From contig MDYQ01000043.1 of NCBI GenBank assembly GCA_003024175.1, positions 1-64,000 of the forward strand: DNA of 64,000 nucleotides, in the 5' to 3' direction. The position numbers and the translations under genes were made by a program. Within the stretch, counting starts at the first letter, position 1, and every line of letters begins with the position of its first letter. Of the stretch, positions 2,200-61,330 are shown one piece after another. The notes under the pieces were generated by a model, which saw only the letters and a program-made list of their open reading frames with translations, did no database searches and was not told the DNA's origin. Source of the DNA: Planoprotostelium fungivorum (Eukaryota; Evosea; Variosea; Cavosteliida; Cavosteliaceae).

Positions 2200-5091
2200 T
2201 TACAGAGTGTTGTAGTCGAAGGATAATAGATCGTGCACTTGTGAGAGACCTCCCGTGGATGCAGTGAAGCCAATCTGTCACGTGTGAGTGTGAGAAATTT
2301 CGATGGAACTTCACCCAAGCCTGTCCCGATCCCAGGTAGTCCGTCAGAAGGATCTTCACCTTCAACACGGCTCGTTGTAGATCATCCACGTACACGTACA
2401 AGCTTCCATCCAAATAAACCACTTTCACCTGTCCATCGTCATCACTCATCTTCACGATCAAGATCAAGATCAGCACGATCACGATCACGATCACGATCAT
2501 CATTTGTAGATTGACTCACGTGATGCACCCCTCCATCTGCCAACTGCACTGCCAACTCCCTCGTACAACCAAGAGAGAAGCTGTGATGGGCACTGTTGGG
2601 AAGTTCCCCCCGACTGTTCACCGAAACATGGTTCCCACTGGGATCCCCATGCGTACCCGAGTCGTACGTATCCATCTCTATGGCAACGCTCCTGGGAATT
2701 CCCCCGTAACCGAGGTCACTGCCGTCTCTTCCCTTGGCCGATGGACCCTCGTTCTGCAGAACGAAAGCCAGGCCGTCCGCGCCTCTCTCGGTGATTTGAA
2801 ATTTGAATTCAACGGAAAAGGGCTCGGAGACGTCGACTTTGTCGGTTAACCACGCTGCACCAACCTGGCCGCTGATTTTGGAGGTGAGGCGTAATCGATC
2901 GGACATTTTCTTTGTCGTTCCCACGGTAACGAGCCGTGTTGTACCGTCCCGATTCATACTGTACCGACAGTTGGGAAATTCCACGGAAATCTGTTCGATG
3001 TCTGGGGGAGTTAGACTTCTCCGTCTACAACGAGCCGATCACCTTCCACCCTCGATGCGGTCTGCGAGCCTAATTCTCCGCGATTTTCCCGCCATTCTTT
3101 TGATCCACTGATTCTGCCTTGTTTCTCATCCTCCGACAAGGTCACGTGACCGGCAGCCAACGCAATTTCCTCTCTACGGTACCTTCTCCACGTGAGTGAT
3201 GATCTACAACGTTGTAGATGGATGGTACCTCTCTTGGAGTAGATCGATCCTGTGTTGAGGGAGTCCGAGTCTGTGCGTTCGGTCCCTGTTGATGGCCACA
3301 ATGACAGTGTCCAGCCATTCTTCTGTAACTTGATTTCTTCGGCTGAGGGAACCATTCATATCTCTCGAATATCTCCTGATGCTGTCTCTCATCTGTTCGT
3401 CTGCACCGATCAGTGAAATTTCACGGACATTTCGCAAGCTCACGAGAGAAGGAGAAGATGTAGGATAATTTCTTCCCCCAGCCTTCTTCGTAGACGAGTG
3501 GTGAATCGATCAGTGCTTCGCAAGAGTCGACGTGCAGCCTGTCTCATTCAATGACATCCATCACGATGATGAGATATTGAAACTCACCACTTCTCGTGTT
3601 CTTCTGACCACACTTCGGTCCAGACGTGATCTGTAAAGTCCATGACATATCTCGCTTCGAATTGGAGGGCACGGCAGAGGAGGGTGAAGCAGTTGGCCCA
3701 TTCGCCACACCTTCCACTCTTCGTCTCCAAGAGTTTGGCGGGATCGTTGTAGCGGGGATATCTGATGACGTCATCACACGTCATCGCATATCCTCACCTC
3801 GTGATACTGTTGCACACGGTGCATCGGTACACTTCCACCACGTGTGCCTAGTGATGTGAGCCGGTTGATCTATTTTTAGAAACACGTACCTGATGCATAG
3901 CCTCCTGTCGATCGGGTTGAGCACCACCGATTCCCTTCGTCTCTCCACCGCACTGGTTGCACTTTGGTGAATTGCACCAAGAGAAGAATTCGTGCTTGTA
4001 CCAGAACACCAGCTGCTTCAATAACTCCGATCGAAAAGGAGGAGACGATTCGTCTACAACGCGATCTCCCAGGGCCTTCTTCACTCTCTCCTTCAGTTCC
4101 TTCAACGGTACGGTCGATCTACAACGCAGTGGGTGAGATCGAAATTTCGTCGAAATCTACCTGGCTTTCGCTTGCATGGTGGGGTCCTCGTATTGTGACA
4201 CCGTTGAAAATCCAGACATGAGTCGTTGCAGCATCTGTCTCTGCTCTTGATTCATTTGGTTCGGATCAAACTGTCTCTCCTTGCTGATCCTACGAATCTG
4301 CTCGATCGATGCCATCTACAACGAGTCACGTGGCGTTCGAACAAGTCGTCTCTTCACCTTCAGTACATCGAGCAGACGTTCACGGTCTGCACCAGCGTAT
4401 AGGTCTGCGTGCTTCCTCTCTAAGAAGAGACAGTTGTCGCCGCACTCACATTCGAAGAAGAGACGAGCGGTGGAGCTTTCGGGGCGTACACTGCCTGGAA
4501 TCTGACACGTGGCCGCACAACCCTGGCACACTCTCTTTGCATCGGTCTTGCGGACGTAACAGGGTTGAACGATTGGACCGGAGACGAAGATGCACGTGCA
4601 TGTGTCTTGCCATTCATCGACTGGAAGAAAATGAGCGGTGAGAAAATGATATGTGATGCATATTACAGTTGACGGGTGGGTTTTGGACGGTTGGTTTTGT
4701 CGTAGGAATGAATGGCTTCTCTGTTACGACAGGAGATGGTGTTGGGGCCTTCCGATCAAATGAAATGGATGGCTGAGTATCTTCTTCTTTTCCTTCACTT
4801 TGGGTTGAATGACGAGCTCTCTTCAAAACTACCAGCCTGGCGTTTCGACGTATGGCCAGTTTCGAGAGATCAACATCATCTCTCAATACACCACACCGAA
4901 GACCGACGATGATCTGATCTTCAGTTGAGACACCAGTCATACTGTATATCTGACTCTTTAGAAGATATACTGGCTCTGATGGCTCGAGTTGAATTCCGTC
5001 ATATCTGGGCCTGTGTCAGGCGTGCAAACTTTGCTCGTCGTGAACGTCACCTTTTTCCTTCAAAAACGATCGTGATTGGAATGGAGTCCAT
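2200..5091 (-). CDS. Peptide:N-glycanase with C-terminal L-type lectin domain
   Basis: A cytosolic enzyme that removes N-glycans from misfolded glycoproteins sent to the proteasome. Reading from the ATG at 5091: a ubiquitin-like region (to about 4820), then a Cys-rich zinc-binding-like stretch with CQGCAATC and FECECGDN (about 4620–4400). The transglutaminase-fold core follows, with the zinc-type pair in [14 protein letters not shown], and the catalytic Cys (RCGEWANCF), His (DHVWTEVW) and Asp (HVDSCE). In place of the usual PAW domain the C-terminus is a legume-type lectin fold ([20 protein letters not shown], ending [11 protein letters not shown] at about 2270). At least ten introns of about 40 nt (one of 91 nt at 2429–2519) are needed. 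The gene is divergent from the next with about 98 bp between the starts. Confidence 0.85.
2429..2519 (-). repeat. Simple repeat filling a 91-nt intron
   Basis: This intron of the glycanase gene is mostly GATCGT and GATCAA repeats on the minus strand. It joins GVHH to VKVVYLDG in the lectin domain. Near its donor it carries ATCTACAA, a partial copy of the window's recurrent intron word. Confidence 0.75.
3202..3219. repeat. Perfect 18-bp palindrome ATCTACAACGTTGTAGAT
   Basis: It lies in the middle of a 46-nt intron of the glycanase gene, between LQER and YRREEIAL. It consists of two copies of the recurrent intron word meeting head to head. Confidence 0.9.
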
Positions 5092-5189
5092 TGATCGTGC
5101 TGTTGTGTATTCTTTTTGCACAACATTGCATTGCCTCGTTGTAAATTAGATTCAAGTTCGTGATGATCACCCAAGGACATCACATCAGG

Positions 5190-7080
5190 ATGACATCGCG
5201 TGTCCAATTAATGGCGACAGTCACGTCTGGCCTTGAGCACATTGCTGCAGCTGAGATAGGAGATGCATTCTTAGGTAGCCAAGTGGAGGTGAGAGACATC
5301 ACATTGCCTCCACGATTTAACCGCCGTAGGTTCAATACGATCGTAAGGATTATCCTGGAAGAGTCTTCTTCTCTGTGTCCAACATGACAGTGAGCTCGAT
5401 CATTCGATGTGGACGATGATCGTATCAGGAGGATTCCTTTTCGATCTTGAATGGACTTCATTCGGTGGAATATGTATACTGTCTCATCGGTAGAATCACA
5501 CTCCAAAGTTGTTGTCCACCACCTGCACAACCCACCACAACGACAGACGATACAGAGCAATTGAAATCATCGCTGCAGGAGAAGGAGGGACAAGAGAAAC
5601 AGAGTGACGAAGGAGAAAAGGTGGCAGAAAAGAAAGAAGAACATAAAAAGAGAAAGAAGGCAAGGGAGGATGACAAGAGGAGAAAGAAGAAGAAAACTGA
5701 GGTAGATCCACAATTGAAAGAGAAAGCTCTGGCGGAGATTGCGAGTGCGGTATCGATCTACAACGAGACCGATTGGGAGACCGCTTATGGGTACGTCACG
5801 CTCATGATCATTGATGATGGTTGAACATCTTTGACGATCATTGATGACCGTTGGATTTCTATCTTTATGTTGAGACGCTGACAGGGTATGGAAATCCTAC
5901 GCAAGAGCAGTGAAAGGTAAGTCAATTGATTCGATTCGAATGTCGACACTTCCTCGATAGGTATACGAAACAGTGAGATGCTGTCGACTGCCATCTTCAG
6001 TGTGTCAGCCAGAACGGCTGGCTCTCATCTCTTTCGAGAGAATGAAATGGGGGAGGTGAGTTGTAGATGGATATCCCAAGCTATTCTCAACTCGTAGACA
6101 CTAGCGGCATCCATACAGACCCTTTACCCCCGCTGGAGACAACAGTGCAGGTGACGCGGATTCGAATGAAAACTCATGGAGAACTCTTCCCTTCCGTTTA
6201 CAACCTGACACGTCGTAGAAATTCAGAGATGGAGATCATGGCCTATCTGCGTAATTCGGAATTGATTCTGGGATTCACCATCACCCAATCGTCCTTGTCT
6301 ATGTCTCACGTCTCTGCGTCACGTGACTTGGGTGTCACTGCATTGAAACCTGCCATCGCCTATGCCATGGTGAGAGCCCTCGAAATTTCATCGAGATCTC
6401 ATTCATACAGTTACGCATGGCCCAATTGCGACCTGGAATGATCGTTGTAGATCCGATGAGTGGATGCGGTACCATACCTCAGATGGGCTCAAATATTTGG
6501 TCCCACTGCCTGTATTTTGCAGGGGATATCTCAGAGGTGTCCGCGTGGTCTCGTTGTAGATCTGATTGAATCAGGTGGCAGTACGTAAGACGAAAAACAA
6601 TGAAGATTCCGCCAGAGAAGAAAAGAGACGTACAGCACCTTGTGATGTCTTTCAATGGGACGGCACCCTCACACCTTTCCGAGACAATTCAGTCGACATG
6701 GTGATCACTGACATGCCTTTTGGAAAGAGAATCGGTCAGTATCTCGTCACGTCACATTTACATCGAGTGAACGTGAACAAAACAGAGCCATCTAAATCAG
6801 ATAGGGAACAAGCAGGGTAACACCAAGTTATACCCTAGAATATTCCAGGAGATGTATAGAATCGTGAGGGAAGGAGGGAAGGCAGTTGTCTTAACGCAAG
6901 AGACAGAGCTCATGCAATCGAAGGTGAATGAAGTATCTGGTTGAATCTGACTGCGTGTAGATCATCAGCAGGAAGACTTGGAAGGATGAGGAACACATGG
7001 ATATCAACCAAGGAGGCATGAAGACGAGAATCTATGTCTTATCAAAAGTCAATGCAAGCGAGGAAGTGCAGGATAAATGA
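5190..7080 (+). CDS. THUMP-domain tRNA guanine-N2 methyltransferase (THUMPD3-type)
   Basis: Predicted to methylate guanine N2 in tRNA with SAM. The N-terminus (ATVTSGLEHIAAAEI) and the central SVSARTAGSHLF part match a THUMP region. The catalytic Rossmann fold follows: VVDPMSGCGTIP for SAM binding, then ITDMPFGKR as the N-methyltransferase (N/D)PPY-like motif, here DMPFG. It ends with GGMKTRIYVLSK. A Lys-rich insert (about 5630–5700) looks like a nuclear or RNA-binding tract. Several introns are clear, for example 6516–6553 region with an internal CGTTGTAGAT and a 41-nt intron near 6370 with GAAATTTC. Exon joins around 6060–6220 remain unresolved. The start could also be 5163. Confidence 0.8.
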
Positions 7081-7238
7081 TGTATTACATGTATTACCGA
7101 TGTGCGTCGTGCTGCTGCTCCTTGTGACAATCATCTGGTATGTCTTCACAGTTGTCGATTTTGTTGATGGCGGTTTACTCTTTCTTCGTATCGCAACTCA
7201 GATTTGGAGAAGATGAGTCATGATTCGACCGACACCAA

Positions 7239-8283: not shown

Positions 8284-8285
8284 TT

Positions 8286-10579: not shown

Positions 10580-12743
10580 ATGATGAAACTTCTCGAAACC
10601 GAGAGAGTGGTCTCGACCCCACACTCTATTCACGTCCATTATATCATCTTGGACATCTCAGACGCAGACGTTCCACCGGCTGCTCATCAGATGGCTCTCA
10701 GAAATCTCATGCAGGCCATTCGAAAGTTCTTTCACATCATGGCCATCCCAGAAGAGACGAATACTCCATGTAAATGGATGTATTCCATCCTTTTGGTTTC
10801 GAACGGTAACGCCGAGGTATGAGTCACTCGAGATCATCATCGCATCTAAATCCTCGCAGTTTATTCTGAGACCCGTGCGCTTCAATTTGGCTCAAATGGT
10901 GGGAGCTCTGGATAAGATAAGATCTCCCCCAAACAAGTCTTCCAATACCGCCAATGCAGGTGGTGTTGGTTCGTTGTAGACAGACAGAATTTCTCAAGCG
11001 GGTTCAGCTGCCGTGGCCACCCTCGAGATGGTAGCGGACCATCTTCAGACCATGCTGAAGAGAACACGTAAAGACACTATTGTGCAAGCCAAGGTGACGC
11101 ACTTCATGTCTGGCGTGGTGCACACGGGCGTGGAGGACGCAGCGTATCGCTTGGATCGAGCTCTGGAGGTGATACCCTCGATCGAATTCGTACGATCTTC
11201 CGAATCTGATGTGAATGAGGTGTTGAAAGAGGCTCGTGCGTTGCTGGATTTCGTATACATCCCTTCTTCTGTCCCAGGTGACGTCATCGAAGCGGTAACG
11301 AGAGGAGAATGTATCGCTAAATGATTTTACAGTCGAGGGCTCGAACTCTCTCATCAATACGAGCCTGGCCACGTTCAGTCTCACTCTACGTAATTGGACC
11401 AATTGCAGTATCATAAGACTCGATAACGACGAGTGAGTTTCCTTTACTCGTGATCTTCTGATCGCTGTTCAGGATTTCATTCATTGGTCTCATCAAATCA
11501 TGGCTGTACGAAGAAGAAGAGGTGAAATCTCATCGAAATCTTCCCCTCACAGTGTCCAGCTCGAATACCCAGGAGAGATCATCTTCCGTAACGGAAATGA
11601 AACGTTGACCATCTACATCAACTTGGAGAAGATGTACGTGGAAAACGTTCTGGTCAAGCAGACTACCGTGGGATCGATGACATCCAACATCTCGATCTCA
11701 CGCTCTTCAGATGTGCTCATGTCATCACACGGACATCATCTCCCGCGACACAGGTGTCCCCCCATTTCTATCGATACACATTGACTTTTATTCAGAACCA
11801 AAGTGTGAGATCACCAAACAGAAGCTGACCTCAGAGCACATGGACACTGCCTTAGATCTCCGTGGTGGAGCCGTTCGATACGTGAAGAAGGTGGAGAACA
11901 AGGGCAATCGTGTCTTCACCATCAAGAAGAGAATCAAGACGTCTTCTCTCAGCTCCGATGTCTTCATCCAGCAGGTGACGATCTCTCCCTCGGCTCGTTG
12001 TAGATCGATGATATTTCAGCCGTGGAGGGTCACGGCGATGAATCCGATGTTATTCTTGGAATTGGATGTACAAGAGGTACGACGTCACACTGATCTCCTT
12101 TCCACTCTCAACTCTTCCCTTCTCGAGAAGGTGAGACACATGATTCACCTTCCACCCTCATCACAGAGACAGGATGAAGCCCTGCTGGTGTACGCACCGT
12201 ACGTACTCGACGGCAAGTTGAGTCGTCTGCCCTTTGGACAGCAGCAACACCTCCTCTTAATTCCTTCTCATTCTTCTTCTCTCTTACTCAGGGTGGGATC
12301 ACAGCCTCCCACGTGTGATGACGTCATATCAGACCGTAGTGACGTCAGAACACGTGTTACCAGAGAAACCGGAGGTGGAGAAGTCACGTGACGTACCTCA
12401 GGCGGTCAAGGACTCCATCTACAACGTTGTAGATGCGGTGAGTGTCACGGATGTCTTCTCCTCACTCGTTGTAGATGGCCAGTGAAGAGTACAACCCCTT
12501 GGACTATGTATCTACAACGCACTCCCTCCTCGATGCGGCCTTAGAAGAGTCCAAGTCCAGTGAGGTCCTTCTCATGGACGATGAAGACATCGGCACGTCC
12601 TCCGATGACATCGTGTTCCATCGAAGTCATGGAGTGAGTGGTATAGAAGATGAGGAGGTGACGGTGTGCAGAGGGGACAGACGGTGGTGGAGAAGAGAAG
12701 TGCGAGGGGACAGAGAGGAAGGGGAAGGCCCAGGAAGAATTGA
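10580..12743 (+). CDS. Unrecognised nuclear-type protein with C-terminal AT-hook
   Basis: A multi-exon protein I cannot name. It begins MMKLLETERVV; the hydrophobic strand HVHYIILDISDAD resembles the first strand and DxS of a VWA fold, an inference only. Helical and beta-rich segments follow (VADHLQTMLKRT, SLTLRNWTNCSI, VRYVKKVENKGN). The end is acidic (LLMDDEDIGTSSDD) and finishes with RGRGRPRKN, an AT-hook that suggests DNA binding. An AATAAA lies just past the stop. Introns near 10955–10993 and 11976–12018 hold an internal CGTTGTAGA, and the intron 12438–12474 ends in CGTTGTAG. Residues KDSIYNVVDA are encoded across a perfect 18-bp palindrome (12417–12434), if that stretch is exonic. Exon joins around 12290–12400 are uncertain. 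Confidence 0.6.
12417..12434. repeat. Perfect 18-bp palindrome, here apparently coding
   Basis: ATCTACAACGTTGTAGAT read in frame gives IYNVVD in the AT-hook protein. The next intron starts 4 bases later and ends in another copy of the word at 12467. Confidence 0.75.
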
Positions 12744-27987: not shown

Positions 27988-30900
27988 TTATCTCTTTTCT
28001 CTCGATGCCGTGCCTCTCATCTCCTCCCTACCCAATTTCGCCGCCGTTTCCAGTGCATTTCTCATCGAATTACCGATTCCCGTGCACAACAGTTTTCCTT
28101 CCGTCAATATCCCCACTTGGTACTTGTCATCGACATCCCTCATCAACCTGCGACGATCGTGTCATCCATCATCCGGGAGATCATCACCATCATCGAACAC
28201 GATGTGACTCACTCGTGCGACAGCTGTGGCGGTTGACCCGACTTCTCTGTCATCTCCATCTCCAATTTTCCGTAATGATCCGTCCACTTTTTCATCTTCA
28301 CCGTCTCGTCCATGTCAGGAACGAACACCACCTACGTACGTTACGTCTCCCGTACACCGAACGAATCGATCTCACGTCAAAGAAGGTCTTCACTGGTCTG
28401 AGACCACCGTCGACATAGATGGCTCCCATTATGGCTTCTAGACAGTCAGACAGCCACGTTGCTGTCGTCGGGTCATCGGGAGGGCAACGGAAACGAAAGA
28501 ATTCCTCCAAGCCGAGCTGGTAGCCCAGATTACACAAGTTCTTATTGTTGACGTGGATGCTTCTTATCATCTAATCTACAATGAGAATGATAAGAAGCAT
28601 ATGATGATGCCTTAAGAGCCGTTACATGAAACTATGTTTTCATGTTTTATAATCATGTGACGATAGAAAGAAGATCATGTCACGAGAGTGTGCGTCGTGA
28701 ACGAGAGGGAGAAGAGGAACACACCGACAGTACGCCCTCTTGGAAGGAAGGACTCTGGTGGTAGAGATGAACGGAAGACAAGAGCTGTAAGATGGCATCG
28801 CCCAGAAATTCGAGCACGTTGAAGGCCAGAGAATCCACGGTAGAGACAGACGGATGAGTCAACGCAGATCTCAAAAGCTCGATATCACTGTGTAAGTCAT
28901 TCATCTACAACGTTGTAGAACGCACTCGAAGCGGTAACCGATGCGTTCTTCGAAGGCCTCTGGTCCACCCCGGGCGGGAGCGGGATCTGGAACCTGCGAA
29001 TGCGATGTCCCCCTCTTTCCCTGGTTCCTCTCTTCCATCCAGATGTCATGGAGATCGGCCTCTTCTGGGCCCTTGTACAAGTCACGTGACACACTTCTAC
29101 GTGAAATCTCACTACGAATAAGAAATCCGCCAGAATTTTCCTGGCGGTGTGGATGCCAGAGTCCAGCATGACTGCTCCCAAAATAGCCTCGAAGCTGTCC
29201 GCTAACACGTGGTACCTGTACTCTCCCCCCTGACTTGTCAACGACATTCCCGCGAAATTTCTTCACCTTGGAGAACACGGGATGACCCGCGGTGAGAATG
29301 AAATCATCCATCCCTCTGTCTTGCATCATCTTTGCTGCCATTTGGTTCTGAACGAGATAACTGCGTCTCACGGACAGAGTGCCCTCGCTGTTATCTGGAA
29401 ACTGCGATGCCTCAGGTGCGAATGCGATGTCTCGGTTACCATGGAGATGAGGTGGGTCGTCACGGCGAATTCGAAGACGGCATCTCCGAGGAATTCTAAT
29501 CTCTGGTTGTGCGAAATTTCACTGGAAATTCCTAGATCTGGGGATCGGGTCAGGTGGGACATGAGCGTAACGTACGGCTCAGGTTACGTGCGGTACAAGT
29601 GTCTGTGCCGTCGGTGCGTTGTAGATGGATGACGTGGGCCGTTCTGGCCGACGCTGCCATGGCATTTGCGAAGACATTTTCGTAATATTCGGAAAAGGAA
29701 GGATGAATCAGGGCCTGATTATGTCATCTACAACGTTGTAGAGGATGGTATCTCACCTCTTCTAATAATCGGATGTCATTGAACGTGCAGTTCATCTTGT
29801 GGGCGGCCCTGATTGCATTTTCCGTGATTTTTCCTCTCAGAGCGCAGATGATGAGAAGAGCTGCCTCCTACAGTCTCTCAGTTTTCATGACATCTCACGT
29901 GATATCTCTGCACCTGACACATATCCGTTCTCATCCCAGTCAGTAGACTGTTTTCATTCAGATGCAACCCATCTTCACTTTCTCTCTGTACGTATCATTC
30001 GTATGAAAAAACAGCACACTCACCCTTCTGTACACTCGGTTAATTGAGACGGGGTATCGGTTTGTACGTCGGGTTACGTCGGGGAAGCGTACGGTGTGTA
30101 CGCAGTAGCTCTTATCTCCCGGTATCCTCAAGATGGTACCCACGAAACTTCGTCGAAAATTTTCCCGCGCTTCCTGTACCGCGTGAGGTCTTCTTCGTAT
30201 AATTCTTCACCTGGTCCCAATCTTGGTTGGCATGTACAACATCTTGTACAGTTTTCTGTGAGATTTCACGAAAGAACTGTACGATCTGATGGATGGTAGC
30301 TCTCTCTTCGTTGGCTGAATATTGGGGCACGAGGTAGAATCTGACACGAAATTGAGAATGTTGTGCGTCCATGACTCTTACCTCCTGAGATGACTTGCAG
30401 AGTCTTCTGCATTCCAAGGATCAAACTGCAGCACACTGCCGAATAAAAAGGTCTGAAACCATTCCAATTCTTCTCTGTCCTTCTCGTCCACTGTTCGGTG
30501 TCAATTTAGAGCATGTTTCAAACTCACCCGCTGCTGTCATCTGGACTTCTTCAAAGATGATCTCGCTTGCTTCTGTTTGATGTCCACGTGTGGTGAGTTG
30601 TCTATGGCATCCAAGGTCCGTCGAAAGACACAACAAGTGGAAACCTAAAGGAGATCTTGAGTGAGATGATTACGCAGGGGTAACAATCATTACCGGAGAA
30701 TCGGTACGATCTTCCTGATATCTCGATGTTCGTTACTTCATCAGAGGATATCATTCGAATACGATACATCTAACATTGTCAATCGAATCAGGGGCTAGAT
30801 CTGATCCTTACCTTTTGTTCTTCCCATCTGATCTGTCTGTCAGCTGCAAACGCGTGTTCGAGATCTTTACGACCTGTCCACCACGCATCGTTCATGTTCT

Positions 30901-33893: not shown

Positions 33894-36800
33894 CTAATAT
33901 CCAACTGCGACGTACTTCGCTCCTTTCCAGCCCGAAACAGAGAAGGCCGGCGTCAGTTTCTTCTCATCGATCGACCAATCGTAAAACTGTGCGGTTCCCG
34001 TCTTCGCATCAAAGAGGACGACCTGTCTGTTCTGCGCGATGAACTCGCATTGAGTGAATGTCCTCTTCTCTCCCTTGATCTGATGCACCTCCACCAAGGT
34101 GTCCGCGTCGATCTTGAAGATACTACCCTGTCCTGCGATGGCGTCATTCCACATCATCGTGATGCGACCCACCTGTCTTCTTCTGGTGGAATAGAACGTA
34201 GCCTGGAGTCAACGCGACGATGTGCTTCCACTTCTTATCGACGTTGTTGATGGTGTTGATGACTTGGAGCTTGCAATCCTTGTCCACGTAGCCGATGTCT
34301 GCCTTCCTTCTGTGGTTGTCGTACAGCAGAAGAGCAGACCTTCCTTCTATCTCTACCGGCACGATACGCTCGTAACCGTCCGACCATCTGGACTTCGCGA
34401 CGACCTGTGATACGTAAGTCGAAATTTCATCGAGTGATCACCTCAAAGTCCGTCTTATTGAGACGTCTCAATTGAGTCTCTCCATCCTTGTCGTGGTAGA
34501 TGACGTGGGGAGATCCATCTACATCGATGGGAACGATGTGCTTCCACCTGCGGTAGGCAGTCTCCTTCACCGTGTGGGTCTGGGGTGCAATCTGTCGCCT
34601 GCCGGGGACGACAGGCAGACTCGATGTCAGACCGGTCTTGTGGTTATACAAGAGGATCTGATGACGTCATCACACGTCATCACATGTGGAATGTCTCACC
34701 TGGTTCGTTGTAGTGGGGACCATTCGCTGTAATTTCGGGGCGATGAGAGAACTGGTCTCGCTCGTCCACACGACCGGAGAATCTAATTCTCCGGCCTTGC
34801 CTCCCGCCACGGTGAAGCTCTCTATCTTACCCTCGGGGTAATACACGTACAGGGTGAACGGCAGCCTCTGCTTCACGTTGTCCACCTGGTATTTGCTGTA
34901 CTGGTCTCCGTAACTGCTGGCCGCGAAGGAAGAAGTGCGGGGGAGGGCGGGACGCACCGAGAAGGAGTTCTGAGAGTTGACTTTGCTGTCGGCCTTGTAG
35001 GAGCTGGTGCTCTCTGTCTTTGTCTCTGTCACGGATATCTCGGGTACGATCACAGCAGGGGCTACGACGATGTCGGGTACCAAGACGGGGGTGGGGGCGG
35101 GGGGTGGGGTGATGGTGTGGGATTTGATGACGTCATCGTTCAGGAGGATCTCTACAACGGTGGCTCCTTCGGCGAACGGGACGAAATTTCCTGGAGATTT
35201 CAGGGGTGGGGTGAAGGGTGGGGATCACCTGCGTAAGTGCCGTCTTGGTTGAAGGTGAGGGGTACGTCCGTGTGGGTACCGTCGTTGCTACGGCAACGGG
35301 CGGTGAAGGTCTGTTGTTCCATGACGCCGCTTCCCTGGGCATCCCGTGCGACGACGCGGATGCTGTTGTTCTCTTCCACAAAGACTTGGCTCTGAGTGGG
35401 GTGGGCCTTCTTAGGCTCTTCCTTGACGGGTTCTGGCTGGTTGTAGATGAGTCGGAGATCTGAAAGACTTTCGACTTACCTCAATTTGTCTGACGGTCTC
35501 GGGCTCGGGTTGTTTAGCGGGCTCGGTCTCGGGTTGTTTGGCTGGCTCGGGCTCGGGTTGTCTGACGGCCTCGGGCTCGGGTTGTTTGGCAGGCTCGGGC
35601 TCTCTCACCGGCTGTACCCTTCAGGTCGATGTACAACGCGCCAAACTCACCTCAGGCTGTCGGGTGGCCGCGACATCGTGGCTCTTGAACAATTTTCCGT
35701 CGTGGTAGATGTTCACCTTTCCATCCTTCGTATCATCTCCCTCGAATTCTCCGCCGAATTTCCCTTCTCCCTCGTGCTTCAGGGTGATCGGGTGAACCTT
35801 TTCTCCCTGCACGAATTCTGCGGAGAAATTGGATTCCGGTGCAGGGCGGCCCTTTTTCCCCTTAGCATGCACGTTCACTTTCCCGCCATCGACAGAGGTA
35901 TCTGTGTGGTCCTGGCTGGCCTCTACCTTCGTTGCCTCTACATCGATCTGCTTCACGGGTCTGCCCTCGTGCAAGATTTTCACGGAAAAGTCTTCCACCT
36001 CCGGCACGTTGTAGTTGCCGTGGTAATTTCCTCCACCGGTGCTACGTAACGGGATTCGTGTCTCCTCTCCGTTGTTCTCCAGAACGGCCGTCAGATGTTC
36101 CTCGGAATGGACCGCGGGTTTTCCGTCCTTCGTTTTCGCTTGCACGGAAACTCCGGAGTGGTTGGCCTCGGCAGAGATCGAACCATCGGTTGCCTTTGGT
36201 TGTGATGCATTCAGATTGTGGGTCCTTACTAATTGATCGGCGTGGTACACTTGCACTTGGGCGTCCTCGCTGGGGTCGAGTTGTAGATGACCGCGATACA
36301 CGGCGTCTCCGTCGTGGTTCAGCGGAACCGAGGTCTCTCTACCGGCCTGCGTGACCTTGGCGGTGAAATTTCCGTGAGATTCCGCGGGGCGGCCGTCCCT
36401 GGAGAGGGAGTGTACGGTGACCGAGTTGTGATCTACAACGAAGGTAGAGCTCCCTGGATCGGCCTGTGGCTTTTGCGCGGGGACGTGGTGGGTGTGGATT
36501 GGTTTTCCCGCCAACAGGATTCGGACTTCCGATTCCCGAGAGGGATCGGGGATGGCGAAATTTCCCTCGAGGTTTCCGTTCTCCCTCGGGGTCAGAGGAA
36601 TCTCCTCGGATTTTCCAGACTGCGCGACTTGTGCGGTGAATCGGTGGCCGTCCGTATTTGCGGGATTTCCGCGGGGAGTCCGAGCCTGCACGTGTACGGT
36701 GTTATCGGTCACGTGAGCGGATGACGTGGTGTGGTGGGGCAGATCATCTCTGGGCTTGAATGGGCCGCCTCCCACTTCTTCTCCGTGCAATTTGACCGAA

Positions 36801-40975: not shown

Positions 40976-43024
40976 ATGCCAGGAAGAGGAGGTATTTCTT
41001 GCCTTTTCATCTCTCGACTCACCATCCGCATCTCCCACCTTTCAACCTCTCACGAAACATCTCATACATCTCTGACGAATCTCTCAAGGACCCCGTGGAG
41101 CCCGAATAATTAACGGTCGCCCCTTCAACTTCGATGATGATAAGAATGCAGGACCTGTCATCCGTCCAGAGAGAGGAGACCTGCTCTATCCAGATAATCC
41201 GGGTCTACACATACCGACCAGACAGCCACCAGATTCCATGATCACAAAGGTACGGTACTTGTTGTGATGCATATCTCGGTGATGGTGGAAGCAGATGTTA
41301 AACATGAGATTGAGATTTGAATCGTCTCCCTTCTATTTCAACCGCGAAGACCAACCGAAAGATGTCGAGAGGTGTTGTGTCCGCGATCACATTCCATTCG
41401 AATGACATTCCTCAGATACATCCACCAGTATTACAAACCCACCGCAGAGGTATCTCATCTCCATCTCCATCTCACATTCTAATGACATCCATCAGATCTC
41501 CGATGCCATCGATTACCGCTCGGGCAGTTTCCCGCCCAGACTATTGAATAGCTACCTGCCCGACAGCAAGAAGTCAGATTTGAGGAGGTACTATTTGGAG
41601 TTGAGACAGAGGAAGGCAAAGAGAGAATTAGAGGCTAAGAAAATCTTCTCGGGTGAGGAAGGATACCTCTACGACATCCAAGTGACTCGTTGTAGATGAA
41701 GGAGCGCCGCCGGTACAGTTGGATACGGATGGTACGTATGATTACGTGTGAAGTGCTGATCGTTGTAGATAACAATCAGAGATTTTTACTGGAATTTAAT
41801 CCTTTCACGGATCCTCTACCCATCGTGAGTTTTCATCCAGATTTCCGGTAGAACTCTGACGAAAGCTAGACACCCGTTCTACTTCCCGTGTCACCCGAGA
41901 GGGTGAGCTCCACCACCATCGTCATCCTCGATCGCGATCATCGATGCGCATCTCGCATGTCCACGTCGTCCATCACATTGTCCATTTGCATCATCACACA
42001 TCGACATCATCGATCATCGCGATCATCTCCTGACGTGGATGACACAGGAAGAAGAAGAACCACCCACGAAGAAAGCGAAGACAGGAAGGGGTAAGGGCAA
42101 AGATGGTGCCAAATCGACCCGAGGCCGTAAGAAAGTCGTACAAGAGGTGAAGTCTGGATTTAGGGTTTAAAACTGACGGGGGTAAGGAAGAAGAACCGAA
42201 GAGGAAGACGAGGGGTGCTCGCGTCACGAAAGAAAAGGCCACCGAGAAGGAAAAACCGAAAGAAAAGTCGAAGAAAACTGAGACCCCGGCGAGGGTGGGA
42301 GGAGCGTCTCGTTGTAGATTGACGTTACCAGGTCAAGAAGACGAAATTGGGCGCGAAAAAGACTTCCTCGAGTGAATCCATCGGTTCTCTCGACGATGAT
42401 TTAGACATCGAGCCTCCCTCTACACCTGCACCTGCCACCCCCAGGTATATGTGTACCTCTCAGAGCGTTGTAGATGAACGATTTTCAGGGTAATATCCAG
42501 GCTGAAGAAAAATGGCGGGACTGCGGTGACGGTGGGGTCACCTAATCTGGGTGTGGAAGAGATGAACGAGGTGAGTTGTAGATCGTCTCGATTTATTGTG
42601 ACCACCCACTAGGGAGGAGACGTACCTTTCCCTGTGGAAGACAACGACGAAGACAGTGCAGTCGACGAAGATGCAGTTTTCAACAAGTGATTTTATTCTA
42701 TTTTATTCGATCCCATTTGGGACGCCTTTTATTTCGTTTTATTTTTTACGAGTGCTGACTCGGACAGGTACACCGCACAAGAGTCGTCTAAAGTGAAGGT
42801 GAAGAAGGTTCACACGATTCATTCATGATGACACAGGATAGGGTGCACCGAAGGTGAAGATCGTAGAGGAAGAGATAGAAGAAGAGCTACCTGAAGAGGA
42901 AGAAGAAGAAGGAATGGACGAAGTGGAAGAAGAAGATTACGGAGATCAGCAGGATGACGATGATGATTTCAACGCGGGAGGAAGCGGTGACGATGGTGAG
43001 GATTGTGATGAGAAAGATAGTTGA
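40976..43024 (+). CDS. RNA polymerase III subunit RPC7/Rpc31-like
   Basis: The N-terminus is Gly/Arg-rich (MPGRGGPRGARIINGRPF), then DLLYPDNPGLHIPTRQPPD and FYFNREDQPKDVERYIHQYY, which align in order with RPC7 (LFPD..., then EERQDIERY). The middle is Lys-rich, and the C-terminus is a very acidic tail (EEELPEEEEEEGMDEVEEED, then QQDDDDDFNAGGSGDD), again typical. At over 400 residues it is longer than usual because of Lys/Glu-rich inserts. Introns are dense: the one at 41732–41768 ends CTGATCGTTGTAG, and those near 41682, 42300 and 42455 hold the word internally. The assignment rests on order and composition, so it is moderate. Confidence 0.55.
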
Positions 43025-48087: not shown

Positions 48088-51000
48088 TCAATAATAGTAT
48101 TCCTCTTCTTCTGGCTCGTTCTGCCTGTCTAACTCCTCCTGTTCTCGGGCCTTTTCGGCTTCCTCCTTTGCCTTTGCGATGAGCGGTAAAAACGCGGATG
48201 GTTCGCACCCTGTCTTCTCTTCAGACGTCTCTCTCATCGACATGATGTGATTTGTGTCGTAATGTGATGATGTGATGGATAATGTGTCGATGGTGTAAAA
48301 ACTTCACCTGTCTCTAAGAAAGGATGAGCCAACAACGTGATGGCGTCCGGCCGTTGAACGGGGTCCATGAGGGTGCACCTGATGTTCCATGAGTCACCGC
48401 GATGCGCTCATCTTTCCCACCTCGCGACAAAGTCCTGTAAAAGTGGTGAGACTGCAGACGGATTTTTGAATGGAGGTCTTCCCTTCGATACGATCATGAA
48501 GAGAGCCTTCAGAGAGGGGAGGTTAAGATATGGTGGCTCTCCCTCTATCATCTCCTGTGCCATGATACCCAGACTCCATATGTCGACCTGTTACCGTCGG
48601 TATACCATCTACAACGTTGTAGATGGAATGTAAACGGCCCACCTTTGTGTCGTACGATGCGTTGGTACCGATGACTTCGGGGGCCATCCAGAAAGTTGTA
48701 CCTACCTGATGTGTGTTAGAATTAGCTGATTGTAGATGGAGAATTCACCTGAGAAGTCCTCTTACGTATCTCCTTGGTCAGGTGAGCGCTGTAACCGAAA
48801 TCGGTCAATTTCAATTCTCCGTTCAACCCCATCTACAACGTTGTAAATCGACAGACGAGACAGCAGTGAGGACACACCAGAATATTATCTGATTTGATAT
48901 CTCTGTGAATGATATCCGCCTTGTGCATGAAATTCAGAGCTTCGAGTGTCTGCACCATTCATCAGATTTCTCATCAGATGGATGATCGAGATGATCACGA
49001 TCATGATGTTGCTGATCAATTCGATGTGGATCATCATGATGACAAAGTCTTCACCTTTTTACAGATGTAAGCAATGTGCTTCTCTTGCAGTTGCAATTCC
49101 GTGTCCTTGTTATAATCGATGACTTGCGTCAGACTCGTTCCATCGACGTATTCCATCGAAATCTACACCCGTCAGTCATCTACAACGTTGTAGATCGACA
49201 AGACCCACCCAAATCGCATCGTCCACCAAAAATGAATCGAAAAACTTTACAATATTCTGATGCTTTGTCTGTTTCATGATCGTGATCTCGTTGATCAAAA
49301 TGTCCACTTTGACCTACCCAACGTCAGCCCACTACACCGTTGTAGATCGATGACGTCATCACCTGCATGGCGATGATCATCTTCTTGATGGCCACCCTCT
49401 CGTTCGATCGACTGTCCGTCCCGAGGTAAACCGTTCCCGACGCACTACAACGCGTCAGACCCATCGAAATTTCCCGCCAAAATCTTCACCCCTGACCGAT
49501 GATGACCATGTCTAAATAGATTGCCGTCGGATTTGTCTTGCTGACGAGATCCTCTACACATCTTCAGATGTCTTACGCACGAAGACACTCACCCAGATTC
49601 GGCAGTTGTTTCGTTACGACGGGGGCGGCGACGGTCGTTGTAGATGCCGCGGCAGAAGGTGGTACCGGCCTCGCCCCAGGGATTGAAGGGGGAACCGGCC
49701 TGGAGACCGGTATAGAAGGCGGCACGGGGCGGGCGGGGGCAACAGCCGCGGGCGCGGCGGCGGGCACTTCCGGGGCGGGAGCCGCCACGGCGACGGGCAC
49801 GGTCGGGGTAGGTCTCGGCGTGGGAACGTATGGGACGGCCTGGGCGTCCGTTGGAGCCACCGTGGGAAGTTTGGGAACCGGCTGGGGTCTGGGAGGGAGG
49901 GTGGAGGGTGGGACCTTCCTCAGGCCGCTGGGAGACGAGGGAACTGCCGGCATGGGACGGTTCTGTGGAACGGCCGGAAGTGGTCCCGCCCTCTTGACGG
50001 GCAATGGGGCGGCCGATGTGGTGGTTGGGGTGGTGGTTGGGGTGGTGGAGGGTGCCGGCTGAGTGGGTCGCAGTTGAATTCTGGACAGCTGTTCGAATGT
50101 TCAGATGGTGACGATGTTGTGATGATGTTGTGATGATGTTGTGATGATGTTGTGATGATGTTTTGATGATGTGATGGTGTGTGATGGTGTGTGATGATGT
50201 GTGATGATGTGTGATGATGTGAGGTGATGTCACTCTACCTCGTTCGTGGGGGGAGACGTTGCCTTCAAAGCCGGTCTGGCCTGCTTGACGGGTGACGTGT
50301 CTTGCTCCTTTGGTTGTTCTTTGAATACGGGTGGTGTGGGAAGTTTCAACGACTTTCTGTGTTCTAATACCTCTGCTGGGGTGTCACGTGATCGTTCGTC
50401 TACAACGCGCCTCACCTCTCGAGGGAGGTGTGTAGTTCGGATTATTCGAACCCACAGACTGACTCAGACGATTATTCGGTGAAATTTCCGGTCGAAGTGC
50501 AGGTTGTACGGCGGCGGGTGCGTTGGACACCTTCACCGGCGCATTCGCATTCGCACGGTTCAGATTCGCAGAAGAAACATTCGAGTTCAACTTTGGCGCC
50601 ACTGAAGGTCTCTCCACCGAGTTGATGACACTCGTCGAATTGTAAGTCTTTCTCAATTGAACCTGCGAGAGTAAAAAAAAGGCCGGGAGCGGGGCTCGAA
50701 CACAGACCTGATACGAAGTGCGGTTCTCGCTCTGGATGTAAGGCTGACGGGGGGGTAGGTCAGCCACCGCCTTCAGCTTCTTCAGCCTCATCTCTTCCAA
50801 GAAATTTCCGCTCGAAGGCTGAGAGGTAAGAGTCTTGGCTTCTTCCGTCTCTGCCGGTTTTGCCGCCACTTTGACGGCGGGCTGTACGTGTGAGTACGAA
50901 CGCGAAATTTCTCGGGAATTTCTCACCGTGGCCTTCTTGACACCCACGGGTGACTGGCCTGACGCGGGTAGCCTGGGAACCACAGGGGAAGCTGGTGGAG

Positions 51001-56376: not shown

Positions 56377-57040
56377 ATGGCAGAGTTTAAGATTGTGATC
56401 GTGGGAGGAGAGAAGGTTGGGAAAACGAGCATCATCATGCGATTCGTATCGGTGTGGTGGGGAATCGTTCATCTCAGTTCTGATGAGAGAAGGGAATATA
56501 TGTCGAAGATTATGATCGCAGTGGGTTCAGATGTGGATTCTTTGTGGATTTACTCTTCGTTAGCAGGTGAATGTAACATGGATGGCTGTTATCATAAGGG
56601 GATCCATGTAGAAGGCGAAACGATACACCTATCGATATGGAGAGAAGAGACATATCAATCACTCGAGAAAATCGGCAGAGGTATATCTGTATGATGATTC
56701 TGAATGTCGTTTACGCATCATAGATGCCTCTGGATTCATCTTTGTATATTCTACCACATCTGCGTCTTCATTAGACATGATACCCTCCTATCACGAGCAG
56801 ATCCAAAAGCTGAAAGGAGAAGAGAAGATACCCATGATTCTCATTGGAAACAAGAAGGACAAGGAGGAACTGAGGGAGGTCACACAAGATCAAGCCCGTC
56901 AGATGTCTGTAAGACTCGGCTGCAAATGGTACGAGACCTCCTGTGTTGACGGTAGTTACATCGAAGATGCCATCTACGATCTCGTCAACATCATGAATCC
57001 TAGAAAGAGAGGCCACAAAAGAGGCTGTCTCCTCTCATAA
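56377..57040 (+). CDS. Ras/Rab-like small GTPase with a CaaX tail
   Basis: The P-loop is GGEKVGKTS, the base-binding motif GNKKDK and the later ETSC. The tail KRGHKRGCLLS ends in a prenylation signal. The usual switch II DTAGQ is not seen: the exon that should hold it reads LSIWREETYQSLEKIGR, so this is either a divergent member (WxxE-like) or my exon joins are incomplete. A 5' intron of about 115 nt is longer than its neighbours. The last exon is repeated after the NN gap at 57071–57240, which I regard as an assembly duplicate. Confidence 0.7.
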
Positions 57041-57270
57041 ACTCTTGATCTCCTTCTCATCTTCTTCTNNACTGAGGGAGGTCACACAAGATCAAGCCCG
57101 TCAGATGTCTGTAAGACTCGGCTGCAAATGGTACGAGACCTCCTGTGTTGACGGTAGTTATATCGAAGATGCCATCTACGATCTCGTCAACATCATGAAT
57201 CCTAGAAAGAGAGGCCACAAAAGAGGCTGTCTCCTCTCATAAACTCTTGATCTCCTTCTCATCTTCTTCT
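56869..57270. other. 200-bp duplicate across an NN gap
   Basis: 56869–57068 and 57071–57270 match except for about one base and flank NN at 57069–57070. This is an unmerged contig overlap. It makes a false second copy of the GTPase 3' end. Confidence 0.9.
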
Positions 57271-57559
57271 GCATGGGGTGAAGATCATCTCGGGTCCGAA
57301 ATTTCGGAAATTTCCGGAATAATCTGGACTTGTTCGTCTACAATTGGGGAAAGCAGTTTTCCGTCGACATAGATTATCTCAGCCGCCCGGCTATTCCAAC
57401 GAGGCATCGCAAACGCCGGCTGCATCGTAGGTAAGAGTCTCTAAGATCGCTGTCAGACGAGCCTAAGCCTATTTGACCTCTTTGTGCACGTGACGATGAT
57501 CTGATAATGTGATCAGATATCTGTCTTGAGAATCCCACTGTTGTTTTCGGTTAGAAGAC
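57271..57559. other. 5' region of the OGDH gene
   Basis: No supported exon. It contains the self-complementary run CGAAATTTCGGAAATTTCCG near 57297 and GTCTACAATTG near 57333. A leader intron is possible. Confidence 0.4.
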
Positions 57560-60500
57560 ATGTTGGGTGCTATCGGCAGACACTTAAATAAGGGGGGAAG
57601 ATGTGTCCCCCTGACTCGGACATCACGAAATGTATCGGTAGTCAGACCGCTCAACAGCGTGCCCACACAGAAACTGAACACGAGAGGTGATGTGTTGTCT
57701 TCCTTTCAATCTTCTAACATTTCGTCAGCATTCTCTACTCTGCCTTCTCTCCGTGCAGCTGCACCATCGTCTCCACAGAAACTCTCAGAGAGCTTCCTCA
57801 GTGGCTCATCTGCCATCTACATCGAAGAGATGTTTGAGGCCTGGAAGAAGGACAACAGCTCCGTTCACGCTTCTTGGAATGCATACTTCAAGTCAGTAGA
57901 GAGGGGAGCCCGCCCCGGAGAGGCACTTGCATTTCCTGATTCGTTTGGAGAGCACATCACCGTGACGGGTGGTGGTTCAGTTGGAGGTGGCATTCCCACC
58001 GATGTCAACGATTCCATTCGTCTGCTCTTGCTCGTCCGCGCTTACCAAGTGAGAGATCATATCATATTGATGTGTGATTATCTCTTATCGTCATCTCGAC
58101 GGACCATCCTCATCATCTCACACTCTTCTGAACGAGATCTGCAGGTGAGAGGACACATGTTGGCCGATCTGGATCCCCTGCGTCTGACCAAAAACCCAAC
58201 TCCACCGGAGCTCGAACTGTCCTCGTACGGTTTCACCGAGGCTGACATGGACAGAGAATTCACTCTGGGCGGTGAATACCTCTCTGGCTTCCTCTCCAGG
58301 TGACAACCATCATCCTTCATCACGTGCATCATCGTCTAAAGAGTCCTGACGCCGTTTAGACCCAAGACCAAGCTGAGAGACATCGTCAGCCGATTGAAGG
58401 AGACATACTGCAGCACCATTGGTTATGAGTGGGTCATCGCCTCGTTGTAGTGTGCCGACGACCTCATCAGGTACATGCACATTCAAGACAGAGACCGCTG
58501 CAACTGGCTGAGAGACAGAATCGAGACCCCTCAGCAATACAAATTTTCAAAGGAAGACAAGACGAGCATTTTGGATCGTTTGACTTGGGCGACCGAATTC
58601 GAACTCTTTTTGAATCGAAAGGTGAACGTTGGAATTCATTTCAAAAAAAAGAAAAAAAATTGAAGAAAAACAGTGGCAAGGTACCAAGAGGTTCGGTGTA
58701 GATGGATGCGAAGGTTTAATTCCGGGAATCAAAGCCATGATCGACAAACTGTCCGATCACGGAGCCGAGAGCGTCGTCATGGGAATGGCCCACAGAGGTC
58801 CGTACACCGGTTTTAAGGTTTATCTGACCCCACCAGGTCGTCTCAACGTCCTCGCCAACGTCGTCCGCAAGCCACTCGATGCCATTTTCCACGAATTTGG
58901 CGGTGGTTCCACTCAGGGCGGCGATTTCTTCTACACCGGCTCAGGCGACGTCAAGTACCATCTCGGTACATCGTACGACCGTCAGACTCGTAACGGAAAA
59001 GCCATTCACTTGTCTCTCTTGGCCAACCCCTCTCATCTGGAGGCAGTCAACCCCGTTGTAGAGGGTAAAGTCAGGGCCAAGCAGCAATTGACCGGTGACC
59101 ACGAGAGGAAGAAGGTGGGACCGTGGCGCGTTGTAGACTGAATCGTTGTAGACGGTCAGTGTTTTGATCCACGGAGATGCATCGGTCGCCGCTCAGGGCA
59201 TTGTCTATGAGACAGTCGGCCTCTCTGGACTGCGTCACTACACCACCGGTGGTTCTATCCATGTTGTCATCAACAACCAGATCGGTTTCACAACCGACCC
59301 TAGAGACGCTCGCGGCAACGTATACTGCACTGACGTGGCCAAGATTTCTCGTGGGATTTTCCTCGGAGATTCCGATCTGACTCGTTGTAGATGCTCCAGT
59401 CTTCCACGTGAACGGCGATGACCCGGAAGCCATCACCCACGCCTTCCAATTGGCCGCCGAGTGGAGACAGACCTTCCACTCTGACGTATTCATCGACATC
59501 ATCTGCTACAGAAAGTTTGGACACAACGAAGGAGACGAACCCAGATTCACTCAACCAGTGATGTACAAGGCGATCGATCAACAGAGATCCACCCTGGAGC
59601 AGTACAAGGCCCAACTCTTGCAAGAAGGTGAGGGGATGGGATGACGTGAGATGACGTCATCAGGCACGTTGAACGAGAAGGAATTGGCCGAGATCGACGA
59701 GAGAGTGAAGAGCATCTTGGAGCAGAAGTACAAGGAGTCCCCCGATTACAAGTCGAACCCTTCTGACTGGTTCGATTCACACTGGCAAAATTTCAGATCT
59801 CAGACGCAGCAAGACAAGAACCAGTGGAGGAACGTGTCGACGGACACCATCAAGAAGGTCGGCAAGGCTCTCTACACCATTCCAGAGGACATCACCCTCC
59901 ACCCCAACATCAAGGTGTGCCGTGTGATGACGCGTGATGACGTCATCACTCATTCCCGCAGAAAATCATCCAGGGAAGACAAAAGGTGGTGGAGAGTGGA
60001 CAGAACATCGATTGGGGTACTGCCGAGTCTCTTGCGTACGGTACGCTTCTATTGGAGGGTAGACACGTTCGTGTGTCCGGACAAGATTGTGAGAGAGGAA
60101 CTTTCTCTCACCGTCACGCCGTCCTCCACGACCAAAACTCCGACAAGGTGATTTCCCGCCAAAAATTAAACCCTAAAACCTGACCCCGCTCAGACGTACG
60201 AGCCCCTCAACAACATCGACCCCGAGCAGGCCCCCTTCAACGTCTGCAACTCTTCCCTCTCTGAGTTTGGAGTCTTAGGTTTCGAGTTGGGTTATTCCTT
60301 GGAGAATCCAAACATGCTCGTCGTCTGGGAGGCCCAATTTGGTGACTTTGCCAACGGTGCTCAGGTACGTCTCGTTGTAGATCGATCACCATCACCTCAT
60401 CGTCATCACCTGATCACCGTCATCAGGTCATGATCGATCAGTTTGTCGCGGCGGGTGAGGCCAAGTGGAGGAGACAGAGCGGACTCGTTCTCCTCTTACC

Positions 60501-61330
60501 CCACGGTTACGATGGTTCCGGACCAGAGCACTCCTCCGCCAGACTCGAGAGGTTCCTCCAGATGTCCGATTCCGACCCCGATGTCATCCCATCCGCTCAC
60601 CCCGAGCAGGTGACACCGACACATCCACCCTCATCCTCTAAACTCGTTCAGGTGGCGCAGCTGTCCAACTGGACCGTTGCCAACATCACTTCTCCCAGCA
60701 ATTTTTTCCACGCCATGAGAAGACAGATCATCCGAGACTTTAGAAAACCGATGGTGGTCATGTCCCCGAAGAATCTACTCAAGCACAGACACTGTCACTC
60801 GCCCATCGAAGAGTTCACCTCCGGACAGTTCAGGAGAGTCATTGGTGAGACGAAACAAGAGATTGTGGACAACGCCGATAAGGTGGGAGACACACGGTGG
60901 GACGTGGGATGACATCATCAGGTCAAGCGCGTCTTGTTCTGCTCCGGAAAGGTCTACTTTGATCTGGCCGACGAGAGAGAGAAGCAGAAGAAGAGCGACG
61001 TCGCGATCGTTCGCGTGGAGCAGATCTACCCTTTCCCATTCGATCTGGTCGCAGAGGAAGCTGCGAGGTACCCCCAGGCAGAGGTGACGGTCATCTACAA
61101 CGAGCCATCTGATCTATCTTTAGATCATGTGGGTGCAGGAGGAGCACAAGAACGCGGGAGCTTGGAATTGGATCGCACCCCACATTCGCACAGCTCTGAA
61201 GGAGAAGAGAGGAGACAACTACAACTTGAAGTACGCAGGAAGGGCCTCGGCGGCATCACCTGCCACTGGATTTAAGAAGGAGCACGACAAGCAGCAGGCC
61301 GCTCTGATATCGACGGCTCTGACTCTATAA
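57560..61330 (+). CDS. ogdh: 2-oxoglutarate dehydrogenase E1 (mitochondrial)
   Basis: The thiamine-diphosphate E1 of the TCA-cycle complex. It starts with a basic targeting peptide ([15 protein letters not shown]). [20 protein letters not shown] is the family's N-terminal binding region. The core is complete: [64 protein letters not shown] and [11 protein letters not shown]. The C-terminal half has [45 protein letters not shown] and [11 protein letters not shown]. About fifteen introns of 37–45 nt cut it. The one near 59124–59160 contains two copies of CGTTGTAGAC in 37 nt, the one at 59351–59390 ends CTGACTCGTTGTAG, and one near 61084–61123 has ATCTACAACG. Confidence 0.96.

Follow-up and report, generated by a model that had tools for sequence, protein, structure and literature searches.

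A short exact word of promoter-distal gene bodies in the amoeba Planoprotostelium fungivorum, a candidate DNA-binding site

Cells are known to tell gene interiors from gene starts by histone marks that are coupled to transcription and, in certain lineages, by DNA methylation. We have analyzed a 64-kb stretch of the genome of the protosteloid amoeba Planoprotostelium fungivorum (positions 1 to 64,000 of contig MDYQ01000043.1, hereafter the window), in which a single exact word, the 10-mer CGTTGTAGAT with its 8-bp core CGTTGTAG, recurs within genes and is scarce at their beginnings. Among the described systems that resemble it, exonic words bound by transcription factors, known as duons, constrain codon choice; this constraint is common to both, but in the amoeba one word dominates, its copies are mostly intronic and few of them lie in 5' exons. 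Periodic A/T clusters (PATCs) show a helical period without an exact word, and the two have in common that they are non-coding DNA borne by introns, the amoeba word being, unlike PATCs, exact. In excerpts of PMC7725773, PATC-rich introns of Caenorhabditis elegans are described as shielding transgenes from germline silencing. The intron-mediated enhancement motif of Arabidopsis, TTNGATYTG (IMEter), is likewise a dispersed short intron word that works from transcribed DNA, as excerpts of PMC6760150 relate, and judging from these it is the positional opposite, since the amoeba word begins about where that signal ends. The nearest working analogue may be the Drosophila MSL recognition elements, or chromatin entry sites, where, in the excerpted text of PMC3343056, a word recruits a complex that acts on gene bodies over one chromosomal domain. 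This likeness would be one of distribution only, as the sequence differs and the amoeba word is scarce in the first ~700 bp and comes with several words together. Literature searches over titles and abstract beginnings, with subscription papers outside their scope, returned no report of the word itself.

Abundance and geometry of the word

The sequence-only reading had put the number of copies in the window at about 55 by eye, from position 3025 onwards. We have counted 33 sense cores (CGTTGTAG) and 25 antisense ones (CTACAACG), that is 58 copies where dinucleotide frequencies predict 0.97, so the estimated excess is confirmed, whereas the start of the range has to be moved slightly, the first copy lying at 2373. 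The 10-mer is present 36 times against 0.09 expected, and both words rank top for over-representation among all 8-mers and 10-mers of the window. The copies are not confined to it: the whole assembly (36.86 Mb in 471 contigs, one of which is referred to below as C1) holds 7,984 copies of CGTTGTAGAT (3,973 + 4,011; 0.22/kb), whereas the reversed control word is found only 62 times (27 + 35). With 0.56/kb, the window is denser than this genome average.

The word is sometimes doubled into an 18-bp full dyad, ATCTACAACGTTGTAGAT, which occurs at 287 places in the genome (control, 0); arithmetic from the genome counts gives ~0.1 expected if the adjoining 8 bases were random. The opposite arrangement, CGTTGTAGATCTACAACG, is found at 0 places, dyads thus existing in one arrangement only. 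Within a 344-kb sample, composed of the window, C1:1-200,000 and eight 10-kb stretches on other contigs, core dyads (CTACAACGTTGTAG) account for 18 of 91 intron sites, so that the earlier description of the word as palindromic holds for a minority of copies and fails for the remainder. The same sample contains 101 exact 10-mers, while 29 of the 30 one-base variants have 0-12 copies and the last, with C at the final position, has 26; a number of variants remain above the 0.3-2 copies expected, as for a graded site. Flank information drops to background ~9 bases upstream and ~3 bases downstream of the 10-mer, and non-dyad sites favour CT immediately upstream (27/75). A strict core, graded flanks, a fixed dyad geometry and occurrence in both orientations, all features of DNA-binding sites, are therefore found together. 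Moreover, introns carrying the word are not lengthened, with medians of 39 bp when it forms the acceptor and 44 bp when it lies in the interior, against 43 bp without it. The near-exact core, graded flanks, dyads and unlengthened introns fit a selected protein-binding site and not the remnant of an insert, and CGTTGTAGAT is probably bound by a sequence-specific protein. The look of a binding site, nearly free of orientation and distinct from a plain splice signal, had already been recognized, together with a suggestion of a tiny mobile insert that is not supported by these lengths, by the unrelated flanks or by the nearly exact core.

Position within genes

Gene models were obtained with a semi-Markov gene finder trained from long open frames on the 344 kb, the motif being masked in the coding and intron-content scores and left unmasked in the splice-site scores. 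It yielded 1,253 introns after ten rounds, a count still growing by ten per round. The predicted introns have a median length of 43 bp, a MAG/GTGAG donor and a branch-like A that peaks ~10-11 nt before a YAG acceptor. In the window, the OGDH gene is 98% identical to the deposited P. fungivorum protein P0121, and 12 of its 15 introns, including 4 of 5 motif introns, have all 12 surrounding residues identical in P0121, the other three lying at gaps of the alignment or beyond the aligned region; a 13-residue piece of the model that is missing from four homologues is present in the deposited protein. Likewise, five motif introns of a PAK-like gene break the kinase domain within stretches aligned to PAK 3 (6fd3), the closest alignment gap to any of them being 8 residues away.

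The frequency of the word depends on the distance from the predicted start codon, from which promoter-proximal (near) and promoter-distal (far) positions are counted. Among genes that have a predicted start and three or more introns, the word is carried by 0/126 introns at 0-200 bp, 2/132 in the following bin, 3/176 at 400-700 bp and 10/146 at 700-1,000 bp, rising to 16/173, 25/202 and 28/230 in successive bins beyond 1,000 bp (69/605). Within 700 bp of the start codon only 5/434 introns have it, and first introns have none (0/122). Outside C1:1-110,000, a word-poor region discussed below, the density over gene bodies is 0, 0.08 and 0.18/kb in the first three 250-bp bins (0.08/kb overall in the first 750 bp), 0.87/kb in the fourth and 0.7-2.1/kb afterwards. 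Shuffling among the introns of each motif gene gives p=0.0002, and for 300 letter shuffles of the word the far/near ratio is 1.03. Counted over the 45 genes that have both a predicted start and one or more sites, 7 sites are near (31.5 kb) and 135 far (102.5 kb). Also, none of the 25 far introns that lie within 500 bp of another gene's start, again outside C1:1-110,000, carries the word.

Introns hold most of the copies, as had been proposed: the core is found 109 times in 65.7 kb of intron (1.66/kb), 41 times in 217 kb of exon (0.19/kb) and 8 times in 61 kb of intergenic DNA (0.13/kb), and in the window 39 of the 58 cores are intronic, 17 exonic and 2 between genes. Intron sites comprise 32 sense copies at the acceptor, 26 sense and 15 antisense interior half-sites (p=0.12), 16 interior core dyads and 2 acceptor dyads. 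A large class of copies is the 3' splice site itself, CGTTGTAG/AT, with the slash at the junction. Indeed, 34 introns end in CGTTGTAG, commonly reading ...TGAC-T-CGTTGTAG, and the following exon begins with AT in 28/34 cases against 39/184 for other TAG introns, which indicates that all 10 bp of the word are preserved where intron and exon meet; TGACTCGTTGTAGAT occurs 553 times genome-wide (control, 0). The antisense form has no AG, which explains the asymmetry of orientation at the acceptor. At 0-14 nt after GTGAG donors, 1,062 sense and 797 antisense copies are found genome-wide, dyads being counted in both (controls, 1 and 0). Donor strength is equal with and without an interior motif (p=0.37), and this, along with the common antisense copies, leads us to reject a plain splice enhancer. 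Spacings between sites peak at 100-200 bp, and a nucleosome-like spacing was also set aside, as the spacing of introns alone could produce this peak.

The six exonic examples named by the sequence-only reading are all exonic in our models, and exons follow the same distance rule. Outside C1:1-110,000 there are 2 copies in 55.5 kb of near exon and 32 in 84.9 kb of far exon (one-sided p=1e-5); inside it there are 6 far and 0 near, so that this region is poor in intronic copies yet not empty in exons. When codons were shuffled synonymously in 140 genes, a control in which codon pairs are not preserved, coding positions from 500 onwards were seen to contain 27 copies of the 9-mer against 3.5±1.7, and positions 0-500 contain 2 against 0.8±1.0. 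By strand, over the whole coding sequence (CDS), CGTTGTAG is found 10 times against 1.0 and CTACAACG 27 times against 10.1. Synonymous codons are thus bent to spell the word, a constraint of the duon type, and the word belongs to gene bodies and not strictly to introns.

Companion words, regional variation and features of the window

Other dimer-type words behave similarly in introns, where far and near frequencies are 30/754 and 2/467 for TGACGTCA, 36/754 and 4/467 for ACGTCATC, and 25/754 and 1/467 for GAAATTTC. Across 76 genes the frequencies of TGACGTCA and GAAATTTC correlate with that of CGTTGTAG (rho 0.39 and 0.42). Coding copies of GAAATTTC follow the distance rule too (far 17 against 3.2 shuffled, near 1 against 1.1), and GATGACGTCATC is found at 993 genome places (control, 4). 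The E2F-like GGCGGGAA exceeds the synonymous control in far CDS (14 against 3.5) and has 8 intergenic copies; the factor at TGACGTCA may be a bZIP protein and that at TTGGCGGGAA may be E2F-like. A lexicon of six words is present in 149/524 far introns outside C1:1-110,000 against 13/467 near introns, 8/230 far introns inside that region and 34/1,274 intergenic 45-mers, the resulting 28% for far introns being descriptive only, as lexicon and region split were chosen after viewing the same data. In OGDH, a lexicon word is found in 8 of the 11 introns classed as far, distances being measured from the model edge.

Word frequency varies by region. Only 2/230 promoter-distal introns of C1:1-110,000 carry CGTTGTAG, and along the 33 genes of C1:1-200,000 the frequency is autocorrelated (lag-1 r=0.65, a value reached in 0 of 5,000 permutations); the matches listed suggest that C1 stays word-rich from ~140 kb to at least 460 kb. 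The intronic words switch on and off together between C1:1-110,000 and C1:110,000-200,000. A conceivable cause of the word-poor domains is that selection is weaker there. Gene class was rejected as a cause: no clear rule emerged from a Pfam search on 40 single exons (19/40 without a family), in which conserved genes occurred among the word-rich (telomerase RNA-binding domain, RasGAP) as well as among the word-poor (ANAPC2, calcineurin-like phosphoesterase, LMBR1). The gene with the telomerase RNA-binding domain (C1:143,520-148,414) has 29 introns, 6 of them with the motif. In 57 genes, word frequency correlates with GC3 at rho 0.24 (p=0.07), with CDS length at 0.20 (p=0.13) and with median intron length at 0.34 (p=0.009).

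Some words form arrays: neighbouring same-strand copies of ACGTCATC within 80 bp make 9 pairs at exactly 10 bp and 1 at 20 bp. At C1:185,674-185,707 they are arranged at exact 10-bp spacing (GATGACGTCATCACACGTCATCACACGTCATC), one helical turn. A similarity search with C1:183,749-190,000 gave 45 matches, most of them to such arrays over ~30-40 bp; these are short shared stretches only, with no full-length paralogue among them. Over the introns of all 10 sampled stretches, CATCATCA/TGATGATG is also commoner at promoter-distal positions and has a sense bias (66 against 34).

Table 1. Word-bearing features of the window. Acceptor class denotes introns whose 3' splice site is CGTTGTAG; PNGase and RNase III, like TSG101 and Atg18, are names given by the sequence-only reading.
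Feature	Position	Strand	Basis
Intron with full dyad ATCTACAACGTTGTAGAT at 3202-3219	3183..3228	-	Gene 2200-4940 (PNGase)
Acceptor-class intron	4119..4160	-	Gene model
Acceptor-class intron, 617 bp from predicted start codon, among the few below 700	4316..4357	-	Gene model
Exonic copy, sense	6443..6450	+	Gene model
Full dyad in predicted exon, just before donor	12417..12434	.	Gene model
37-bp intron ending in CGTTGTAG	12438..12474	+	Gene model
Intron with core dyad	28888..28925	-	Gene 27988-31184 (RNase III)
Intron with core dyad	29715..29756	-	Gene 27988-31184
Exonic copy, sense	36433..36440	-	Gene model
Acceptor-class intron	41653..41695	+	Gene model
Acceptor-class intron	41732..41768	+	Gene model
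PAK-like kinase-domain intron, full dyad; nearest alignment gap 8 residues off	48588..48642	-	PAK 3 alignment
PAK kinase-domain intron ending in CGTTGTAG; junction in ungapped stretch	48833..48877	-	Alignment to PAK 3 (6fd3)
PAK kinase-domain intron, full dyad	49163..49208	-	PAK 3 alignment
PAK kinase-domain intron, GATGACGTCATC and ATCTACAACGGTGTAG	49314..49362	-	PAK 3 alignment
45-bp PAK kinase-domain intron, TTTTGGCGGGAAA overlapping GAAATTTCGA, and CGTTGTAG acceptor	49445..49489	-	PAK 3 alignment
OGDH intron, interior sense copy	58429..58470	+	Protein alignment and model
37-bp OGDH intron, two copies, one at acceptor	59115..59151	+	Protein alignment and model
OGDH acceptor-class intron	59351..59390	+	12/12 junction residues identical in P0121 and homologue P0122
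OGDH intron, GATGACGTCATCAG, second word running into acceptor	59628..59663	+	Protein alignment
OGDH intron, CGTTGTAGAT directly after donor	60365..60426	+	Protein alignment and model
OGDH intron, antisense copy ATCTACAACG	61084..61123	+	Unconfirmed by P0121 (alignment gap)

The homologue P0122 is an 81%-identical OGDH relative known from JGI as a protein encoded on a 3.1-kb contig; a further OGDH relative, with 73% identity, is likewise known as a protein. The deposited P0121 (1149 aa) includes a Ras domain (PF00071), and a separate gene model directly upstream of OGDH, at 56377-57040, is Ras-like by eye, so that two neighbouring genes may have been merged in the deposited model. The window also contains seven tRNA genes identified by Rfam, at 785, 7239, 7393, 7661, 12779, 61453 and 61737; ARAGORN finds six of them, five of which are tRNA-Gly, and misses the long one at 61737-61851 (115 bases), which perhaps has an intron.

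A proposed gene-interior site and its alternatives

The presence of the word on both strands, its dyads, its exonic copies and the distance rule point to recognition as DNA inside genes. Judging from these patterns, our preferred interpretation, to which we give a probability of about 0.55, is that the word is a promoter-distal gene-body DNA-binding site under selection, beside other dimer-type words. In such a scheme CGTTGTAGAT would be a half-site, two of which at times meet head-to-head and share a CG to form ATCTACAACGTTGTAGAT, and a sequence-specific factor would read it on double-stranded DNA within genes. Selection would retain sites from ~700 bp past the start codon and keep them rare closer in; introns would hold most copies because they are non-coding space inside genes, exons taking others at a cost in codon choice, and in 40-bp introns the site would be nested with splice signals, the TAG of the word doubling as acceptor. 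CGTTGTAG would act beside the dimer-type words TGACGTCA/ACGTCATC and GAAATTTC. The rarity near starts suggests that a bound factor is harmful or useless there, which would speak for a function in gene-body chromatin or in the fidelity of transcription: bound factors might mark or maintain gene-body chromatin, for example by suppressing intragenic initiation or by recruiting a modifying complex. Of the possible mechanisms, such marking or maintenance, which would be harmful at promoters, seems to us the likeliest, though by itself it is less likely than not. The earlier interpretation is thus supported in part, having missed the distance rule, the exonic constraint, the acceptor class, the companion words and the regional variation.

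A number of observations weigh against the preferred interpretation. Predicted start codons are stand-ins for promoters and the gene models are our own and not a published annotation; indeed, the 5' end of the OGDH model is wrong, for which reason OGDH was excluded from counts needing a start. The word is also present at some promoters: each of the 8 intergenic copies is found no more than 350 bp upstream of a predicted start, and chance would place ~1.4 copies in the 44 kb of intergenic DNA that lies 700 bp or less from a start. Coding TGACGTCA shows no clear avoidance of starts (near 4 against 1.8±1.2, far 9 against 2.7±1.6), and the synonymous shuffle is not a strict control, CACGTG and CATCATCA exceeding it 1.5-1.7-fold near and far alike. 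The introns of C1:1-110,000 are at background, conserved genes included, and 20 of 57 genes with at least 5 far introns hold no lexicon word. Also, the excess of sense over antisense copies after donors indicates that orientation is not strictly neutral, and a genuine sense excess there is possible.

Ordinary intragenic enhancer or repressor sites, at which common transcription factors would bind TGACGTCA, TTGGCGGGAA and CGTTGTAG and regulate the host or a neighbouring gene, would account for the recurrence of several dimer-type words in the same genes, for the excess of GGCGGGAA in far coding sequence and for the intergenic CGTTGTAG copies just upstream of predicted starts. Such sites are however expected to be commonest in promoters and first introns, where the word is rarest, and the concentration near starts that a promoter-type site implies is the reverse of that observed, so we regard this explanation as unlikely. 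Position also rules against a promoter-near enhancer or intron-mediated enhancement, enrichment being found beyond ~700 bp. An element of the pre-mRNA, either a hairpin formed by the dyad or CGUUGUAG bound by an RNA-binding protein, which would aid the splicing of short introns, is less likely still: the concentration in introns, the 34 introns ending in CGTTGTAG, the capacity of dyads to fold as hairpins and the sense excess after donors would agree with it, but the word is not restricted to one orientation, lone antisense half-sites being common (15/41 interior) and accompanied by the 797 antisense copies after donors. Far exons moreover carry the word on both strands, and splicing should be indifferent to how far the word lies from the start codon.

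A PATC-like licensing or anti-silencing code, marking native genes by 10-bp-phased arrays, seems improbable; the words are borne by introns, are on or off over whole regions and, in the case of ACGTCATC, are spaced by 10 or 20 bp, but this phasing is not seen in the spacings of CGTTGTAG sites. Gene-body methylation in other lineages also avoids gene starts, and the word contains a CpG, in a genome with matches to the DNA_methylase family (PF00145) at two loci (C72:12,097-14,301 and C271:17,948-18,965), which may point to cytosine methylation, or to an enzyme of the DNMT2 type, in the amoeba. That the word is a target of such methylation is nevertheless very improbable, as CpG is not depleted (observed/expected 1.07 in far and 1.01 in near introns) and methylation alone does not conserve a 10-bp word. 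We give hardly any credence to introners or other tiny mobile elements, whether they would have created the introns or inserted into them: high copy number, intron-rich location and dyad symmetry would be expected of them, but the motif introns are not longer than others, no sequence is shared beyond the word and its short flanks, and neutral remnants would have left many one-mismatch forms, whereas copies are also found in open coding exons.

Extending the preferred interpretation of a selected gene-body site, we tentatively propose, from the sequence patterns alone, a code of gene interiors, in which a few dimer-type words, with CGTTGTAGAT foremost, would appear from ~700 bp past the start codon onwards, both in introns and, in the case of the leading word, in codons, being rare near promoters and on or off over 100-kb domains. 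Dedicated proteins would thereby define gene interiors as opposed to promoters, and tiny introns would persist partly as landing places. If this is true, a code for gene interiors written in the sequence would be a different answer from histone marks and DNA methylation, strong enough to bend codons and to fuse with splice sites, and very short introns would gain a role as DNA. With one exact word in ~8,000 copies, a sharp dependence on distance and naturally word-poor regions that can serve as controls, the amoeba would offer a testable system.

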